From positions 19,732,994-19,796,993 of the forward strand of contig CM046869.1 in the NCBI GenBank assembly GCA_025617745.1: 64,000 nt of DNA, given 5' to 3'. Below are positions 21,576 through 55,026 of the stretch, in pieces. The notes under the pieces were generated by a model. It was given only the letters and a program-made list of their open reading frames with translations, searched no databases and was not told the origin of the DNA. Positions within the stretch are counted from its first letter, which is position 1; each line of letters begins with the position of its first letter. The position numbers and the translations under genes were made by a program. The DNA is from Heliocidaris erythrogramma (taxonomy: Eukaryota; Echinodermata; Echinoidea; Camarodonta; Echinometridae).

Positions 21576-22373
21576 TTGCTTTGTTTGTATTGTCAGCTAT
21601 TCAATGTGATACGATTAAATTTAGTTGAATTATTTACGATAGTATACTCTTGTTTGATAAAGCAGGAATTTTTCTTTAGAATACTTCAGATCGACATTCT
21701 ATCATGTCTATTTTTACAAAATTATGAGGTTTATTTAAATAGCCTAGAACCACCGACGTCAATAAAATGGCACACTGCACCACCACCGCCACCACCGCCA
21801 ACGATAGTATACTCTTGTTTGATAAAGCAGGAATTTTTCTTTAGAATACTTCAGATCGACATTCTATCATGTCTATTTTTACAAAATTATGAGGTTTATT
21901 TAAATAGCCTAGAACCACCGACGTCAATAAAATGGTACACTGCACCACCACCGCCACCACCGCCAACGATAGTATACTCTTGTTTGATAAAGCAGGAATT
22001 TTTCTTTAGAATACTTCAGATCGACATTCTATCATGTCTATTTTTACAAAATTATGAGGTTTATTTAAATAGCCTAGAACCACCGACGTCAATAAAATGG
22101 CACACTGCACCACCACCGCCACCACCGCCAACGATAGTATACTCTTGTTTGATAAAGCAGGAATTTTTCTTTAGAATACTTCAGATCGACATTCTATCAT
22201 GTCTATTTTTACAAAATTATGAGGTTTATTTAAATAGCCTAGAACCACCGACGTCAATAAAATGGCACACTGCACCACCACCGCCACCACCGCCAACAAC
22301 AGAAAAAATGTTAAAGGCAATGACATACCCAAACATATGCAAAACAGTAAACATGTTTGTCAGAACGCTATGA
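21576..22373 (+). CDS. Uncertain ORF of four 55-residue repeats with poly-proline linkers
   Basis: Because 165 is divisible by three, an ORF of 265 codons passes through all four repeats. Each repeat reads as a hydrophobic, Leu/Ile/Phe-rich 40-residue segment (with YSCLIKQEFFFRILQIDIL) followed by EPPTSIKWHTA and PPPPPPP. One unit has Y for H. About 20 residues precede the array and about 24 follow. I recognise no domain, and no splice sites, promoter or homologue are visible. The base unit alone is open for 55 codons, so an array of any length would stay open. This is therefore weak evidence for coding, and the array may simply be a minisatellite. Confidence 0.2.
   Translation: MLCLYCQLFNVIRLNLVELFTIVYSCLIKQEFFFRILQIDILSCLFLQNYEVYLNSLEPPTSIKWHTAPPPPPPPTIVYSCLIKQEFFFRILQIDILSCLFLQNYEVYLNSLEPPTSIKWYTAPPPPPPPTIVYSCLIKQEFFFRILQIDILSCLFLQNYEVYLNSLEPPTSIKWHTAPPPPPPPTIVYSCLIKQEFFFRILQIDILSCLFLQNYEVYLNSLEPPTSIKWHTAPPPPPPPTTEKMLKAMTYPNICKTVNMFVRTL
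21636..22295 (+). repeat. Tandem array, four copies of exactly 165 bp
   Basis: Units start at 21636, 21801, 21966 and 22131 and are identical except for one C-to-T change at 21936 in the second copy. Each unit ends in a (CCA/CCG)n run coding for seven prolines and contains AT-rich unique sequence. The near identity implies very recent amplification or gene conversion. Confidence 0.95.
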
Positions 22374-30624: not shown

Positions 30625-31030
30625 ATCGGTTACATGTCGTTTTTCCGCAAGTTCATAATTCTGAAGGTTCGTATTTCCGAAGGTTCATTTACTCGGAAGG
30701 TTCATTACTCGAAATGTTCATTACTCCGAAGGTTCGTAAATCCCAAAAATTAAATAATATTCACAATTCCGAAAATGAAATAGGGTTCATAATTCCAAAT
30801 ATGGAATAAGGTTCATAATTGTGAAGGTTCATAAATCGGAAAATGTAAATAGAACCCTACATATTTTTTCAGAATTACGAACCTTCGGAATAATGAACCC
30901 TATTTCATTTTCGGAAATACGAACCCTATTTCATTTTCGGAATTACGAACCCCATTTCATCTTCGGAATTATGAACGTTCGGATAAACGAACCTTCGGAA
31001 TAACAGACCTTCGGAAAAACGAGTGCCGAT
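30625..31030. mobile_element. Foldback element built from a TTCCGAAGGTTC motif
   Basis: The left arm repeats GAAGGTTCATAATTCCGAA-type units (about 17-24 bp). The right arm (from about 30865) carries their reverse complements (TTCGGAATTACGAACC). The outer ends ATCGG...TCGTTTTTCCG and CGGAAAAACGAGTGCCGAT are inverted. The element is about 406 bp. The 60-codon frame inside is a repeat translation. Confidence 0.8.
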
Positions 31031-32559: not shown

Positions 32560-32632
32560 GAATGCCCCGACCGGGATTCGAACCCGGGACCCTGGCTTAC
32601 ATGACCAGTGCTAACTGAGCTATCCGGGCTCC
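32560..32632 (-). mobile_element. tRNA-like SINE head (threonine-like)
   Basis: The minus strand reads GCCCGGATAGCTCAGT, then CTGGTCATGTAAGCCAG, then CCGGGTTCGAATCCCGG and TCGGGGCA. The acceptor stem pairs in six of seven positions, and the T and anticodon arms form. The anticodon triplet would be TGT, but position 33 is A instead of U. This fits a tRNA-derived repeat better than a working tRNA gene. The AGAAAGTAAATG words on one side recur at 32870, suggesting a second fragment. Confidence 0.5.
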
Positions 32633-48450: not shown

Positions 48451-50134
48451 CACTGTTGGTCATAATGGTAGCATAATTTTTTTTTCTACCTTTCGTACAC
48501 TATTGACAATAATACGAGTCATTTTTTGGCAAAATAAAGCTTATATCTTCACCGATTTTATTGATAAATCTGTTCTCAACATATGAAATAAAAAATGTAA
48601 GACAAAAATTAATTCATACAAACTTTATACACTGGTTTAAACCACTTTTGACAAACACAATCATCCAGAACTTGGATTCCTTGAAAAAATGTATCGTTAT
48701 GGTAAATGTTTAACCATGATAATTTTATCGTGAAAAATAAAATCTTGGGATCTTTTGGTGATTGAAGGGAAGTGTTCCTCTTTTTAATCTTGTTGGGTCA
48801 CTTTGTACCTGGTATGGCCACCTCTGGCACGCACCAGTGCCTCCACACGCCGTGGCATACTGTCCACAAGGTTGTTGATGGTGTTCAAGGGCAGTGCATC
48901 CCACTCTTCGGTCAGTGCCTGGGCTAACTCCTGCACATTTTGAGGATGATTGTTTCTCTCATTGATGGCACGGCCCAATGCATCCCAGGCGTGCTCAATG
49001 GGGGTTCATGTCGGGGGAACAGGCAGGCCAAGGCATCTGCTGCACGTCCTCTGCGTCAAGGAATTCCCTCACCAGACGTGCCCTATGTGATCGAGCGTTG
49101 TCGTCTTGGAGCTGAAAGTTATTGCCATATACTCTTCTCGCGTATGGAAGACAATGGCGTTCCAGGATATCGCGGTACACGACGGCGTTGACGTTTCCTT
49201 CAGGTGCAGCCAATGGCGTTTTTCCGCCATAATGTATTCCGACCCATACCATCACTGAGCCTCCACCTGCTTGATTGGTTTCCTGGACACAGTCATTACG
49301 GAGGTTCTCGCCCCACAATCGTCGAACCTTCTGCCTCCCATCGGTGCGGTCAAGGATGTACCGGCTTTCATCAGTGAAGATTACATGGCGCCAGTGACCA
49401 AGCTGCCATCTTCTGTGCCTCCTAGCCCACTGGAGTCGAGCAACCCGGTGGCGAACAGTGAGACGTGGAACCTTGGTCATTCGCCGAGCTCTGTAGCCAT
49501 GTTGGACAAGTCTCCTGTTTACGGTTTCCCGTGAAACGTTCACTCCGAAGTGCCTCCTCCACAAGTGGCAAAGACGACTCGCTGGCATTCTCCGGTTCCT
49601 ACGGCACATGTTCAGCAGTTGACGGTCATCCCGTGCGGATGTTCTTCGTGGTCGACCTGTAGATCTCTCTGGACTCAAAGTACCCGCCTCTCGATGTCTT
49701 CTGAGGATGCGGCACACACAACTCTGCGATAGTCCAAGAATATCTGCAATCTGGGCCTGTGTCCGTCCATTCCGTCGGAGTGCAAGGACCCTCTGACGAA
49801 TTGCAAGTGCCGTTGGGCGAGGCATAGTGTAAGGAATCAATGTATCAAATTTGGTAGGAATTGATCAAGCTAACTCTGAAAACGGGCTTTTAACACACGT
49901 AGGCTTTCTGCACGAAATGGACAGCAAAACAACAGCAGAAAGGAGGCTCTGCCTTTCTTAGCACCAAACAATACGTTATGGAATGTTTCACTTGACCGAC
50001 TTTTACCTCGACAATACAAAATCATTATGTAATCAATGAACCTGGTCAATATTATCTATTTAGGCTTTTAAATATGATTAAATCAACGGATGACTATGAA
50101 AATACGAATTATGCTAACATTATGACCAACAGTG
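48451..50134 (-). mobile_element. Complete Tc1-like DNA transposon
   Basis: The inverted ends are CACTGTTGGTCATAATG, then GTAGCATAATT (48451-48478), and AATTATGCTAAC, then ATTATGACCAACAGTG (50107-50134). They differ at only about one position in the first 28. TA lies directly outside both ends (48449-48450, 50135-50136), the Tc1/mariner duplication. The 1,684-bp length is typical. The transposase lies on the minus strand with about 310-330 bp of flanking sequence on each side. The well-kept ends imply recent insertion. Confidence 0.95.
48784..49825 (-). pseudogene. Tc1-like DD34E transposase with one frameshift
   Basis: The ATG at 49825 starts MPRPTALAIRQRVLALRRNG. Two helix-turn-helix regions follow (QAQIADILGLSQSCVCRILR at about residues 23-42, then a second around NVSRETVNRRLVQHGY with a GRPRR linker between). 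The catalytic core has D152 in VIFTDES and D242 in LQDDNARSH. After SPDMNP the frame breaks. At 49000-49004 the plus strand has five G where four would keep frame, so the ORF ends H-stop instead of entering the segment with the catalytic E, which would fall 34 residues after D242. The remaining 70 or so codons are intact in the other frame down to a TAA at 48784-48786. The enzyme cuts and pastes at TA sites through its inverted ends. As read, this copy would be inactive. Confidence 0.93.
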
Positions 50135-50296
50135 TATTTTGTTTATATCCGTCATCTTGAACAAAAGCCTAATGCTACTAATCTACTTGATCATCTGCAC
50201 TGTAGGGTATGATGTCGTCACAATGTAGTAAGCGCTCAGGCTTAGCAGCTGCTTTTATTTTTTCCTTCGCGTCGCGAGTCGATTGAGGGGGGTAAC

Positions 50297-51040
50297 CTCG
50301 CTAGTCATAAGGACCGCTAGTCATAAGGATCAGTGGCTCATAAGGACCGCTAGTCATAACGTGTAATTTCCTATACCTGTAGGGTCGCTATTCATAAAGC
50401 GAAAAGGGGGTCACTATTCATAAACTCATAAGGAGCATTATTCATAAGGATTGCTATTCATAATATGAGAAGAGGGTCGCTATTCATAATCGAAGAAAAG
50501 GGTCATTACTCATAAGGGCCGCTATTCATAATAAGTCATAAGGGTCGCTATACATAATACAGATACAGGGTCGCTATTCATAATACCAAATCGGGGTCGT
50601 TAATCATAAGGGTCGCTATTCATAAAGGTCAATATTCATAAGGGTCGCTATTCATAAAGGTCAATATTCATAAGGGTGGCTATTCATAATCGGAGAAGAG
50701 GGTCGCTATTCATAATCAGAGAAGAGGGTCGCTATTCATAATCAAAGAAGAGGGTCGCTATTCATAATCACAGAAGAGGGTCGCTATTCATAATCGAAGA
50801 AGAGGGTCGCTATTCATAATCACAGAAGAGGGTCGCTATTCATAATCAAAGAAGAGGGTCGCTATTCATAACCACAGAAGAGGGTCGCTATTCATAATCA
50901 AAGAAGAGGGTCGCTATTCATAATCAGAGAAGAGGGTCGCTGTTCATAATCGAAGATGAGGGTCGCTAATCATAATCAAAGAAGAGGGTCGCTATTCATA
51001 ATCACGAAAGAGGGGCGCTGTTCATAACCGAAGAATAGGT
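50297..51040 (+). repeat. Left arm: tandem array of GGGTCGCTATTCATAATC units
   Basis: The regular part (about 50690-51030) has a strict 26-bp period: GGGTCGCTATTCATAATC plus a variable AGAGAAGA/AAAGAAGA/ACAGAAGA. The outer part (50297-50690) is shorter, irregular variants (CATAAGGACCGCTA, CATAAGGGTCGCTATT). About 25 units in all. Confidence 0.92.
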
Positions 51041-51924
51041 TAGGGTTAGGATTATTTGTCAAATATTATAATATGATTTTCATTGTTCAATGAACACTGA
51101 AATATGAAAGAACAAAAATAATAATATTGGATGGGATCTAGACACCCCACGGCTGTGTCGAGCCAATATGGGGACGGGCGATGAAACAAATACACCCCTT
51201 AAAAACAGGCGAGAGCGAAAAAGCGTGAGGAAGCGGAGGAAGAGAACGATAAAAGCTACGAAATTTGCGTCAGTATTCGCGCTTCCCGTGGGGAGGGGGA
51301 AGTAATTCCCCATCCATGCATCCACCCCTGATACATGCAGTGCAGCATTGCGTGGGTGTCGAACTAACTTTCCGCCTAAAAGGAGGTGCTAAATGTACGA
51401 GCCTTTATCTTTCTCTCAAATTTGCTACAAAACGTCTGAGGGACCCCCCCCCCCTCTCCATGCACCCACCCCTGTTACATACAGTGCAGTATTGCGACGA
51501 GCTATTATCTTAATCTCAGATTTGCTATAAAACGTCAGAGTTTTCGCACGGGAGGGGAAAACCATATAGTTACATACCCCTAACAACTCTATGGGGGAAT
51601 CTCCCCCTCCCTGCATCCATCCCCCTGGGGAGCACGCAAAGAGTGCTCATCACCAAATTGGCACGCTTCGCGGGCTCACAAACGCCCCATATTGAAAAAT
51701 CCTGGCTACGCCTGTGTCACCCCCCCCCCCCCCCCCCCCCCCCCCCCAGTCCGATCACGTTGCGCTTTTCTACCCATCTTGTTTCGGTACAAGCACATAG
51801 TACTGACAATTTTCGTCAAAGCAATTCATAAATGGCATAGTCTGTCTGTGGGTGGCGGGGGGGGGGGGGGGGGGGGTGCTGTAGTAGGTGTTGCCACCAG
51901 GTGTTGTTCTATCATGTCCATAAT

Positions 51925-52790
51925 CCTCAGAGATAGGCGAGATAGCTCAGAGGTCGAACAGTGGCTTTGTAACTGAAGGATGCGTGTTTGAAACCAGGAT
52001 GCACTCATGTCCTTTGGTAAGGCATTAACCTCAAGTCCCTCGGAGAGGACTTAACCCTAATAGGCCCGGGGGCGGATTCCCCCCCCCCCCCCCACCCTCG
52101 ACGTTTCGCGTAATATGTTCGCATTGCGAAAAGCAGTCACCACGCCGCTTCACTACTTTTTTCTTTCAAGTCTTGCGCAACTTCTGAGACCAAATTTGTG
52201 ATGTCCGCGCGTGCGGTTCCGGAGTTACCCAACATTTCGTAAGTGCATGTCAGACCCAAAATTGTTCAAAAACGTGATTTCGTGTACAAATCCAATCCAA
52301 ATTGTGTTTCCAGCTAAAATTCATAAATGTTTCATTATTTTTACTTTTACTGTTTAAAAACAATTAATTTTATGTTGTTTAGGATTAAAATAGTGTCACC
52401 GACAAATTCCATCGAAAAAACAATAAAAAAACATAAGAAAAAAAGGATTTTTACCGGTTTATTTGATAAGAATCTGACAAAGAGTCTCTATAACAAAGAT
52501 TAGCAGTTTTGGGGCTTTAATTAATTAATTAGAGCAAATTAATTTTATGCATAAATTAGCATAATTAATTAGTTATTAAATTTTTCGGAGAAATTGACTA
52601 TACAGTTTTGTAGATTACGTGGTCGGCGACGTGTGTGCCGATTTTCGTTGCGAATGCGCGGTGGACGGCCGAGATCTTAGGGGGCGGAATCAGCCCCCCA
52701 CCCCGGCTGTGAGATGGGTCTAAAATAACCCGGCTCTGTTAGGGTTAAAGCCGTTGGTCCTGTGGTTGTTTACATACAACCAATATGTTT
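51925..52790 (+). mobile_element. tRNA-derived SINE (second type) split by a TTAA element
   Basis: Head GAGATAGCTCAGAGGTCGAA and GTGTTTGAAACC (B-box-like), then CCTTTGGTAAGGCATTAACC and GTCCCTCGGAGAGGAC up to TTAA at 52051-52054. After the insertion it resumes at 52745 with TTAAAGCCGTTGGTCCTGTGG and TTGTTTACATACAACC. The minus-strand copy at 26925-27045 is uninterrupted at this site. Confidence 0.85.
52055..52744. mobile_element. TTAA-type non-autonomous element (piggyBac/Kolobok-like)
   Basis: The ends are CCCTAATAGGCCCGGG and CCCGGCTCTGTTAGGG, flanked on both sides by TTAA. GGGGGCGGATTCC near the left end pairs with GGGGCGGAATCAGCCCCCC near the right. The 690-bp interior is AT-rich with no open frame of note. 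TTAA duplication with CCCTA termini fits piggyBac or Kolobok elements; the autonomous partner is not here. Confidence 0.85.
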
Positions 52791-54261
52791 TACAGTATAA
52801 AGAAATGGGAATAAATTGGATAGAATTGAATTAAGATCAAACAAACATAGAAAATACATGATGCGCATGCCCTTGTAATGGGGGGGGGGGGGGGTGGCCT
52901 GTAGGATTGGCTTGTATCATCCCCCCGCAATAATTCACCTTCAATAAATGACATGATCAAATAATATGATCAGGAGGAGGAGGATGACCATGATGATTAT
53001 TATTCATAGGATCACGATCGATCAACATGGTGATAATTTTTGTCATGATTTTTGTTATGTTAGACCGAAATAAAGATTTCAAAGAATATAATGAAATAAA
53101 TAAGTTAGTAATTACCATGAAAGAACATGCACTCAAATGCTCTGAGAGGTGATTTTTAACTCGGGGAAATTTGAAAGTCCCAACCGTGGGAGGGCATACT
53201 TCATTCCCATCCATGCCCATAAACAGGGGCACACTGTAAAAACGGTAGATGCCAATGAATTGTACGTTACTAAAATCACGTATTATGAAAATATTACTAT
53301 CCCACCCCAAAATAAAAACGAAAACAAATTTTTCGCGGCAATTTCTAAGCCCGTATCCGGACAACTACCCCTACAACTAATCTCCAAGACAAATACCCCC
53401 TACGAGAATCCCACCCCCCCCCCCTCCTCCCCGCCCAACTTTCCCCTCATCTCCCCCCAAATGGACGATTGCTGGAACTTGAGATAAAGGCTAAGGATTA
53501 GGTCTTCACAGGAGTTGAGAAACGGGAGGATCTGGATGATTCAGTGATTCATTTATTGCTATGCAACAAGGATACAAATTGTGTTACAATCTGATTTCCC
53601 AATTTCAAGCATAAAAAATTGCACGTGATGGATAAGAATGAATACAGAAAAATATATTAATGCACATGTATCAAAATATATTAACACATTGAGAAAGAGG
53701 CATGACAATAATTATTCCATGATAAATCTACGTAAACAGTATACAAAAGGAAATAAGAGTACAAGCAAGAGGTCCATGTCTTGCAGAAAACCATGCAGAA
53801 ACAAAGAAACAAGAAGCTGGAAAAGGAAGGAAAGAGGAAAGGAGAGAGAGAGAGAGAGAGAGGAGGAAAAAGAAAAAAGAAAGAACGAAAAGGGTACATA
53901 AATAGACAACCAGTACTTCCCCTAACTCTAAAATAGGTGTGGCAATGACACTCCAATATTCAAAACAAAGCACATGTCTGCGTGTATGTGGGTGTGTGGA
54001 TGGGGGGGGGGGGGGGGGGGGGGGGTCCTCTCCTCCCACGTAGATGTATGGATTAGACATCGTTTTTTTAATTATTAAGGCACTGGCAAAGCGCCTTTCA
54101 AAGTGTGGGGAGTATTGATAAATATAGTTCACTTTTTTAGAAAATAGGGATATATTTGACAAAAACCGGAAATGCATTGTATAGAGCTTTCTTAAATACA
54201 ATACCGTTGGGCCTTGGGTTGTCCTTCCTCCATATCCCTTTCTTATTTGATTTAAATGACA

Positions 54262-54896
54262 ACCCTCTTCTTTGATTATGAATAGCGACCCTCTTCTGTG
54301 ATTATGAACAGCGACCCTCTTCAGTGATTATGAATAGCGACCCTCTTCTCCGATTATGAATAGCGACCCTCTTCTCCGATTATGAGTAGCGACCCTCTTT
54401 TGTGATTATGAATAGCGACCCTCTTCTCCGATTATGAATAGCGACCCTCTTATGTGATTATGAATAGCGACCCTCTTTTGTGATTATGAATAGCGACCCT
54501 CTTATCCGATTATGAATAGCGACCCTCTTCTCCGATTATGAATAGCGACCCTCTTATGTTATTATGAATAGCGACCCTCTTCTTCGATTATGAATAGCGA
54601 CCCTTATGAATATTGACCTTTATGAATAGCGACCTTTATGAATAGCGACCTTTATGAATAGCGACCCTATTTTCGCATTATGAATAGGGACCCTTATGAT
54701 TAACGACCCTGATTTGGTATTATGAATAGCGACCCTCTTTCCATATTATGAATAGCGATCCTTATGTCTTATTATGAATGGCGGTCCTTATGAATAATTA
54801 CCCTTATGAATAGCAACCCTTATGTCTTATTATGAATAGCGGTCCTTATGAATAATTTTTTTTTATGAATAGCGGTCCTTATGACTAGCGAGCAGA
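54262..54896 (-). repeat. Right arm: inverted tandem array of the same 26-bp unit
   Basis: The plus strand reads GATTATGAATAGCGACCC plus TCTTCTCC/TCTTTTGT-type variable octamers with a 26-bp period (about 54270-54600), then irregular CTTATGAATAGCGACC variants to 54896. Order and degeneration mirror the left arm: regular inside, irregular outside. Confidence 0.92.
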
Positions 54897-54940
54897 CCCC
54901 GATTGAGGGGGGGGGGGGGGGCTGGAAAACAAATAGTTTA

Positions 54941-55026
54941 TTTTTTCCCGCTGACGTCATCGAATAGTTCATTTTGTCCCTCTGATGGGAAAATATGATC
55001 TATTCGATGACGTCAGCAGGAAAAAT
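54941..55026. repeat. Perfect-looking hairpin carrying two TGACGTCA sites
   Basis: Arms of 40 bp (54941-54980 and 54987-55026) pair through TTTTTCCCGCTGACGTCATCG on the left and its complement on the right, with a 6-base loop. TGACGTCA, the cAMP-response-element palindrome, is at 54952-54959 and 55008-55015. It lies 30 bp outside the foldback element. Confidence 0.75.

Follow-up and report, generated by a model that had tools for sequence, protein, structure and literature searches.

A non-autonomous foldback element with arms of 16- and 26-bp tandem units in the sea urchin Heliocidaris erythrogramma

Foldback elements are characterised by long inverted arms made up of tandem subrepeats. In the Drosophila Foldback (FB) element, the arms are long and consist of short tandem units, regular on the inside and irregular on the outside. 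Tm1 is described as having arms of 13–15-bp tandem units in variable number, 7-bp motifs CGGTTAA and CCTACCC, and target duplications of mostly 8–10 bp (PMC3169594). The arm tandem repeats of Galileo have been reported to hold extra transposase binding sites (PMC3688188), and in D. mojavensis its arm length is reported to change via tandem-repeat gain and loss (PMC3573991). The arm repeats of Tetris are reported to have seeded satellite arrays (PMC4079207). Here we describe an element within a 64,000-bp stretch of the genome of Heliocidaris erythrogramma (the window; contig CM046869.1, here C17:19732994-19796993). Its architecture is that of foldback elements, a known kind. In the titles and abstract openings of the literature on foldback elements no description was recognised as this family, the sequence itself not being queried.

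The element extends from 50289 to 54900 (4612 bp), which bears out an earlier note on this DNA that placed a 4.6-kb foldback element at 50280–54912. We conclude with high confidence that it is a non-autonomous foldback-type cut-and-paste DNA transposon that moves as one unit, and not a pair of separately seeded satellite arms. One end, A1, starts at 50289 with the terminal segment GGGGTAACCTCG (50289–50300, plus strand). The other, A2, finishes at 54900 with the reverse complement of GGGGTCTGCTCG (54889–54900, minus strand). The A1 segment is identical in four other copies of the element (loci L017, L019, L020 and L021), and the A2 segment in L017 to L020; in L024, A2 takes the form GGGGTCCGCTCG. 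The terminal inverted repeat (TIR) consists of GGGGT, three asymmetric bases (AAC vs CTG) and CTCGCTAGTCATAAGGACCGCTA, so that the ends of the element are asymmetric (GGGGTAAC vs GGGGTCTG); the end motif can also be written GGGGTNNNCTCG. Inward of both terminal segments the window copy reads CTAGTCATAAGGACCGCTA. The outer termini thus form an inverted repeat as the earlier note had it, but a longer one than it gave.

Once the ends are set at GGGGT and ACCCC, an exact copy of GATTGAGG abuts both termini, at 50281–50288 and 54901–54908 (8 bp each, direct reading). The possibility had been raised that the flanks match only through a tract of G. This is not so: the duplication is independent of the G tract, because GATTGA falls outside it, and other copies have duplications without such a tract (CACAATTC, CTTTGAAA and GATATTTT). 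If the ends were of 7 bp, as in Tm1, the duplication would be one of 9 bp (CGATTGAGG); the window copy also fits this, but the ninth base differs in L017, L019 and L020. The 9-bp reading is rejected in favour of 8 bp, which fits all exact cases; of the 8–9 bp proposed earlier, an exact duplication is therefore present, and its length is 8 bp.

The arms lie at 50301–51043 (A1, plus strand, 32 core anchors) and 54260–54888 (A2, minus strand, 28 core anchors), the anchors being counted by cutting the arrays at CTATTCATAA. The two facing arrays are where they had been placed, but the unit, given as a single one of 26 bp, is composite. A 16-bp unit, GGGTCGCTATTCATAA, consists of GGGTCG and the core CTATTCATAA, and the 26-bp unit consists of the 16-bp core and a 10-bp spacer, in the inner parts mostly TCNNAGAAGA. 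The spacers are A-rich (51% A and 23% G in 195 spacers of 12 arms). Allowing at most 2 mismatches, the 16-bp core has 47 matches in the arrays, against 0.01 expected. As in FB, and as noticed earlier, the arms are regular inside and irregular outside: the inner parts are pure 26-bp arrays (about 14 units in A1 and about 13 in A2; 14.1 and 13.2 copies), and in the outer half 16- and 26-bp spacings are intermixed with a few odd ones. The previous counts, about 25 units on the left and somewhat fewer on the right, were too low. The outer arm parts have a unit order in common beyond chance, the observed score being reached in 4 of 2000 shuffles of unit order.

The genome (1,064,227,859 bases in 26 contigs) was searched for further copies. 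The end pattern GGGGTNNNCTCGCTAGTCATAAGG has 1101 + 1147 = 2248 exact matches, both end types taken together, and its reversed control 0 + 0. With 2 mismatches or fewer allowed, an 18-base inner pattern occurs 15745 + 16853 times, and its control 5 + 10 times. Samples of arrays and of ends were each drawn from 100 listed places, all of which are on contig C1, and they are thus a sample of one chromosome. The exact array matches among the listed places form seven clusters within the first 9.55 Mb of C1, and all seven were read. In five of them (L017, L018, L019, L020 and L021+L024) the arrays form an inverted pair closed by A1 and A2 ends. In this sample, then, arrays are not mostly single, which would have spoken against the earlier proposal. 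Exact 8-bp duplications are found in four of these five long pairs: CACAATTC, CTTTGAAA and GATATTTT in L017, L019 and L020, and GAGGTGAC in L021+L024. The copies of the family are dispersed at unrelated sites. Eight viral contigs of IMG/VR also contain the 16-mer, once each and with no adjoining units; being single and without neighbouring units, these matches are put down to chance.

The question left by the earlier note was whether the element moves as one unit or whether each arm seeds separately. The interior (51044–54259, approximately 3.2 kb) is common, wholly or in blocks, to the dispersed copies. It is present over its full length in L017 (94.7%), over most of its length in L018 and L020 (94.8–97.7%, plus one 65-bp block at 100%), in blocks in L019 (78.5–92.8%), and as three short blocks in both the 11.2-kb L021+L024 element (82–86%) and L041 (72–83%). 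The arms are side-specific. Arms of the same side are 92.7–99.2% identical among six copies (mean 95.8%, 30 comparisons), and opposite arms are 87.8–92.4% identical within one copy (mean 90.3%, 6 comparisons) and 88.2–92.5% between copies (mean 90.6%, 30 comparisons); these identities are computed over aligned columns only, differences in copy number being uncounted. The window copy and L017 to L020 also share a barcode of unit lengths in the outer part of each arm, which reads 16,33,38,26,24,16,26,26,16,10,16,26 in A1 and 16,17,16,26,16,16,26,26,26,16 in A2. In these same copies the number of middle 16-bp and inner 26-bp units is variable; the unit-length series of L021+L024 is simpler. From the common interior, the side-specific arms and the common outer barcodes it follows that arms and interior are inherited together, and that the arms change as whole units are gained or lost. 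Given this side-specificity, and an interior that moves along with the arms, the answer is mainly that the element moves as one unit.

Short elements point in the same direction. Among the first 29 listed ends, nine belong to the five long pairs, and the remaining 20 were fetched and examined, a one-base offset being allowed in the search for a partner end. Ten of the 20 have a partner whose duplication differs at no more than 1 of 8 positions, being exact in L026, L036, L040, L043 and L044 and having one mismatch in L027, L028, L031, L035 and L037; the control, using the duplications of other loci, gave 2 of 376. At up to 2 mismatches the figure is 14 of 20 (control, 4 of 376). The 14 partnered elements range from about 86 bp (L030, 2 mismatches) and 102 bp (L036) through 223–333 bp to 663 bp (L026). 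These elements of 86–663 bp have the same ends and core as the window copy. By eye, several elements of 220–270 bp look like fused pairs, in that a motif resembling an end occurs inside them and a second start-like one comes after it. The left flanks of L033 and L034, and of L038 and L039, are identical over the 60 bases compared, the distances between the loci on C1 being approximately 1 kb and 58 kb. They are therefore duplicates, namely local duplications that carried the element along, and 18 of the 20 ends are independent.

The ends also provide information on the enzyme. A terminal GG, TIRs and 8-bp duplications would together imply that the ends are acted on by a cut-and-paste transposase of DDE type, a reading that draws on established knowledge of TIR transposons. 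All 24 interior frames of at least 50 amino acids were analysed with Pfam, and none has a domain above the family cut-off or a transposase, in agreement with the earlier note; neither PF12762 nor a MULE transposase was found there. Three matches below the cut-off, PRIMA1 (E 0.011), Tmemb_55A (E 0.028) and SK_channel (E 0.099), are taken as chance. As the interior has no coding domain, the transposase would act in trans. A P-type transposase with a THAP domain is likewise absent from the window copy, and no genome search was made for one.

Two superfamilies were considered as the source of this transposase, and neither reaches an even chance. The Merlin superfamily (DDE_Tnp_IS1595) is one possibility, which we put forward tentatively. 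Merlin elements are described as having a terminal 5'-GG, duplications of 8 or 9 bp and, in some, tandem repeats (PMC8101967). Both A1 and A2 start with GG and the exact duplications are of 8 bp; this combination is seen in the long copies and in the short elements L026, L040 and L044, whose duplication is exact and whose partner end is GGGG. The genome contains 52 matches to PF12762, of which 20 lie in frames of at least 350 codons with no stop within the match; several of the matches score equally on different contigs. Against this, the outermost G is not invariant: among the best or nearest partner ends of the short elements, 9 of 14 are CCCC and 5 of 14 CCCG, and the partner end is CGGG in L036 and L043. 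At L046 (3.7 kb), the one locus of Merlin type that was read, there is neither an array nor a clear terminal repeat; it has a single isolated core-like match and, on one strand, one end-like match with 2 mismatches. Moreover, the sole PF12762 match in the part of C1 spanned by the listed ends, at C1:10311486, is approximately 0.4 Mb from the nearest listed end.

The transposase might instead be supplied by the Phantom group of the Mutator superfamily, as in Tm1 of root-knot nematodes, a possibility put forward just as tentatively. Tm1-A is reported to encode a Phantom-type transposase, and Tm1 to have arms of variable tandem units and asymmetric ends (PMC3169594), an asymmetry that the ends of the present element share. 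Duplications are given as 8 or 9 bp for Muta1 (PMC5225508) and as 8–11 bp for the Mutator superfamily, together with long terminal repeats (PMC6446971). The present element has duplications within this range and long terminal repeats. On the other hand, the duplications of Tm1 are most often of 9 bp and the exact cases here are of 8 bp, and the resemblance between the present ends and the terminal motifs of Tm1 is short and seen by eye only.

Several observations weigh against the conclusion that the element is a transposon moving as one unit. The first is that no transposase is linked to the family, there being none in the interior frames of the window copy by Pfam and no arms at the Merlin-type locus. 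Secondly, in L018 the GGGG of the A1 end is lost, and no exact duplication is present. Thirdly, of the 20 sampled ends, six (L029, L032, L033, L034, L041 and L045) have no partner within 2 mismatches and a further four have one only at 2 mismatches. Finally, among the 100 listed C1 ends, exact ends that face each other at a distance of no more than 12 kb form 12 pairs when counted by eye. The count omits the window copy (C17) as well as L018, the A1 end of which has ceased to match the pattern; for eight of the pairs the flanks were read as 60-base pieces. An exact duplication is present in six (L017, L019, L020, L021+L024 and pairs of 4071 and 4572 bp, the last two seen as flanks only) and absent from the other six (3954, 10110, 1590, 2138, 6259 and 7598 bp). 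The 3954-bp pair lies within an AT repeat and has a shifted match, and the 10110-bp pair has CACGA in common with a shift. The 1590- and 2138-bp pairs are A1/A1 (C1:24680556-24682145 and 24916033-24918170) and have no target duplication; they may be two neighbouring elements or recombinants, and the others may be different elements paired, recombinants or old copies. Insertion as a unit with a target duplication is thus found, but not in L018 or in half of the facing pairs, and the proposal of inverted pairs with matching flanks holds for most long pairs but not for all facing ones.

The arrays themselves add two further points against it. The inner arm parts of the window copy have no common unit order, 1646 of 2000 shuffles reaching the observed score, and at L022 (in the region of C1:4274996) an array of 11 units, each of 26 bp, stands bare, with no ends; arrays can thus also occur alone. 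At L022 both array edges, at approximately 1930–2250 of the locus, stop at GCTAT, so that microhomology-mediated gain of the array alone is conceivable. The remaining array cluster, L023, is a divergent foldback of small size; one of its sides carries an A1-type end, and none was found on the opposite side. That each arm is a self-seeding satellite, the facing pairs having arisen by chance or local inversion, is what a bare array and an inner array with the unit order of an independently evolving satellite might suggest, but the side-specific barcodes, the common interior, the exact target duplications in dispersed copies and the predominance of full pairs with conserved ends among the array clusters make it highly improbable, and for the window copy it is mostly refuted.

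Returning to the element as a transposon that moves as one unit, the origin of its arms can be considered. Under one set of ends the sizes range from approximately 86 bp to 11.2 kb: elements of about 86–333 bp with few units, elements of 475–663 bp, and foldbacks of 4.4–4.6 kb with 24–32 core anchors per arm. The long foldbacks thus stand at one extreme within a family that resembles miniature inverted-repeat transposable elements (MITEs). This suggests that the arms were enlarged by tandem duplication within the element, and are not satellites that arrived separately. Growth from short to long is proposed because short elements are commoner, in a small sample, and carry few units.

On this basis we hypothesise that a transposase supplied in trans would recognise both ends, first the terminal GG and then the 16-bp core in the array, and insert the whole 4.6-kb unit, making the 8-bp target duplication. 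The arms would be the TIRs of the element itself, enlarged by tandem duplication of the 16-bp unit, and a 10-bp insertion would then have turned the 16-bp unit into one of 26 bp, which multiplied on the inner side. The direction of growth, from small to large, and its mechanism, slippage or unequal exchange, are inferred. The 16-bp core is a putative transposase binding site, by analogy with Galileo, since the arm repeats there hold extra binding sites. The origin of the arms of satellite-armed foldbacks has so far been mostly inferred. With the graded series of sizes and the barcodes of unit order, gain and loss of units can be read copy by copy, and how a minisatellite originates within the end of a transposon becomes testable; so, directly, does the idea that the arm units are transposase binding sites.

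A second family has the same geometry. At 30632–31029 the window contains a degraded foldback whose unit is TAATTCCGAA followed by GGTTCG (16 bp), or the same with AATGAAATAG between them (26 bp). No target duplication was recognised there by eye. Its left end, GGTTACATGTCG, is that of a fuller copy in L021/L024, which has the ends GGTTACATGTCG and GGGGGCATCTCG and the duplication GCAATCGG on both sides. The fuller copy is part of a triple nest at C1:9543277-9554489 (L021+L024), in which the second-family foldback lies within a long interspersed nuclear element (LINE), itself within the 11.2-kb copy of the first family. Both foldbacks of the nest have exact 8-bp duplications, and the LINE-type retrotransposon is recognised in L021 from reverse transcriptase frames (PF00078, E 4.1e-11 and 7.6e-17).

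In both families the 16-bp unit is outside and the 26-bp unit inside, the latter with 10 purine-rich bp inserted at an identical position, and both have 8-bp duplications and asymmetric 12-bp ends with TCG as their last bases. The 16/26 arm geometry is clearly common to the two. The 26-bp units agree at 13 of 26 positions, which is not significant (7665 of 20000 shuffles). The 16-bp cores agree at 11 of 16 positions (5 of 20000 shuffles) in a fixed register that was set by hand from the position of the 10-bp spacer; the likeness is weak if any register or strand is allowed (403 of 20000). Common descent of the units of the two families is likely. A bolder suggestion, and one that we think improbable, is that the spacing of the units, which grows by approximately one helical turn from the 16-bp to the 26-bp form, reflects a conserved function: the arms would serve a single lineage of transposases as a platform of several phased sites, and selection on this platform would have left the satellites as by-products.

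The interior of the window copy contains a piece that may be a short interspersed nuclear element (SINE), at 51977–52054 on the plus strand, with a 76% match to window 27039–26952. It is interrupted by a 690-bp segment (52055–52744), recognised by eye, that is bounded by TTAA and has CCCTAA...TTAGGG ends; from its target and ends we take this to resemble a piggyBac-type MITE. The earlier description of a SINE with a further insertion is therefore plausible, the relative within the window supporting it. Rfam at gathering scores gives no match at the SINE-like piece, its sole match in the window being a tRNA at 32563–32629. Around the element, a frame for a Tc1/mariner-type transposase (Pfam HTH_Tnp_Tc3_2 and DDE_3) lies 0.4 kb to the left, at 48995–49861 on the minus strand, and a MITE-like palindrome (54942–55025, 87% over 85 columns) directly adjoins, on the right, the G tract found after the element. 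Elsewhere in the window, a 165-bp tandem repeat of four copies with 99% identity (21636–22297) lies within one open frame of 268 codons.

It remains to compare the element with the systems described. Drosophila FB differs from it in the sequence of its units, in their lengths of approximately 10, 20 and 31 bp, and in its 9-bp duplications. The TU element of sea urchins, described in 1983, reportedly has varied middle segments, 8-bp duplications and long inverted repeats whose outer domain is made up of short tandem repeats. By that description, TU elements could be the same family as the present element or a sister to it; if they are, the novelty of the present family falls.

Among the other described systems, Tm1 resembles the element in being non-autonomous, in having arms of short units whose number is variable and differs between the ends, in its MITE-like members, and in its asymmetric terminal motifs outside the inverted repeat; the units are of 16 and 26 bp here and of 13–15 bp in Tm1, and the duplications of 8 bp here and mostly 9 bp there (PMC3169594). 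Tetris of Drosophila virilis is likewise described as a foldback without a transposase, with duplications of 8–10 bp and tandem repeats inside its arms, but its units are of approximately 220 bp and its satellite-like arrays reach kilobases, compared to 16/26-bp units and one bare array here (PMC4079207). Galileo, of the P superfamily, differs in its 7-bp duplications, in F-group repeats of approximately 210 bp and in having a known transposase, but it is like the present element in that its arms lengthen or shorten as tandem units are gained or lost (PMC3688188, PMC3573991).

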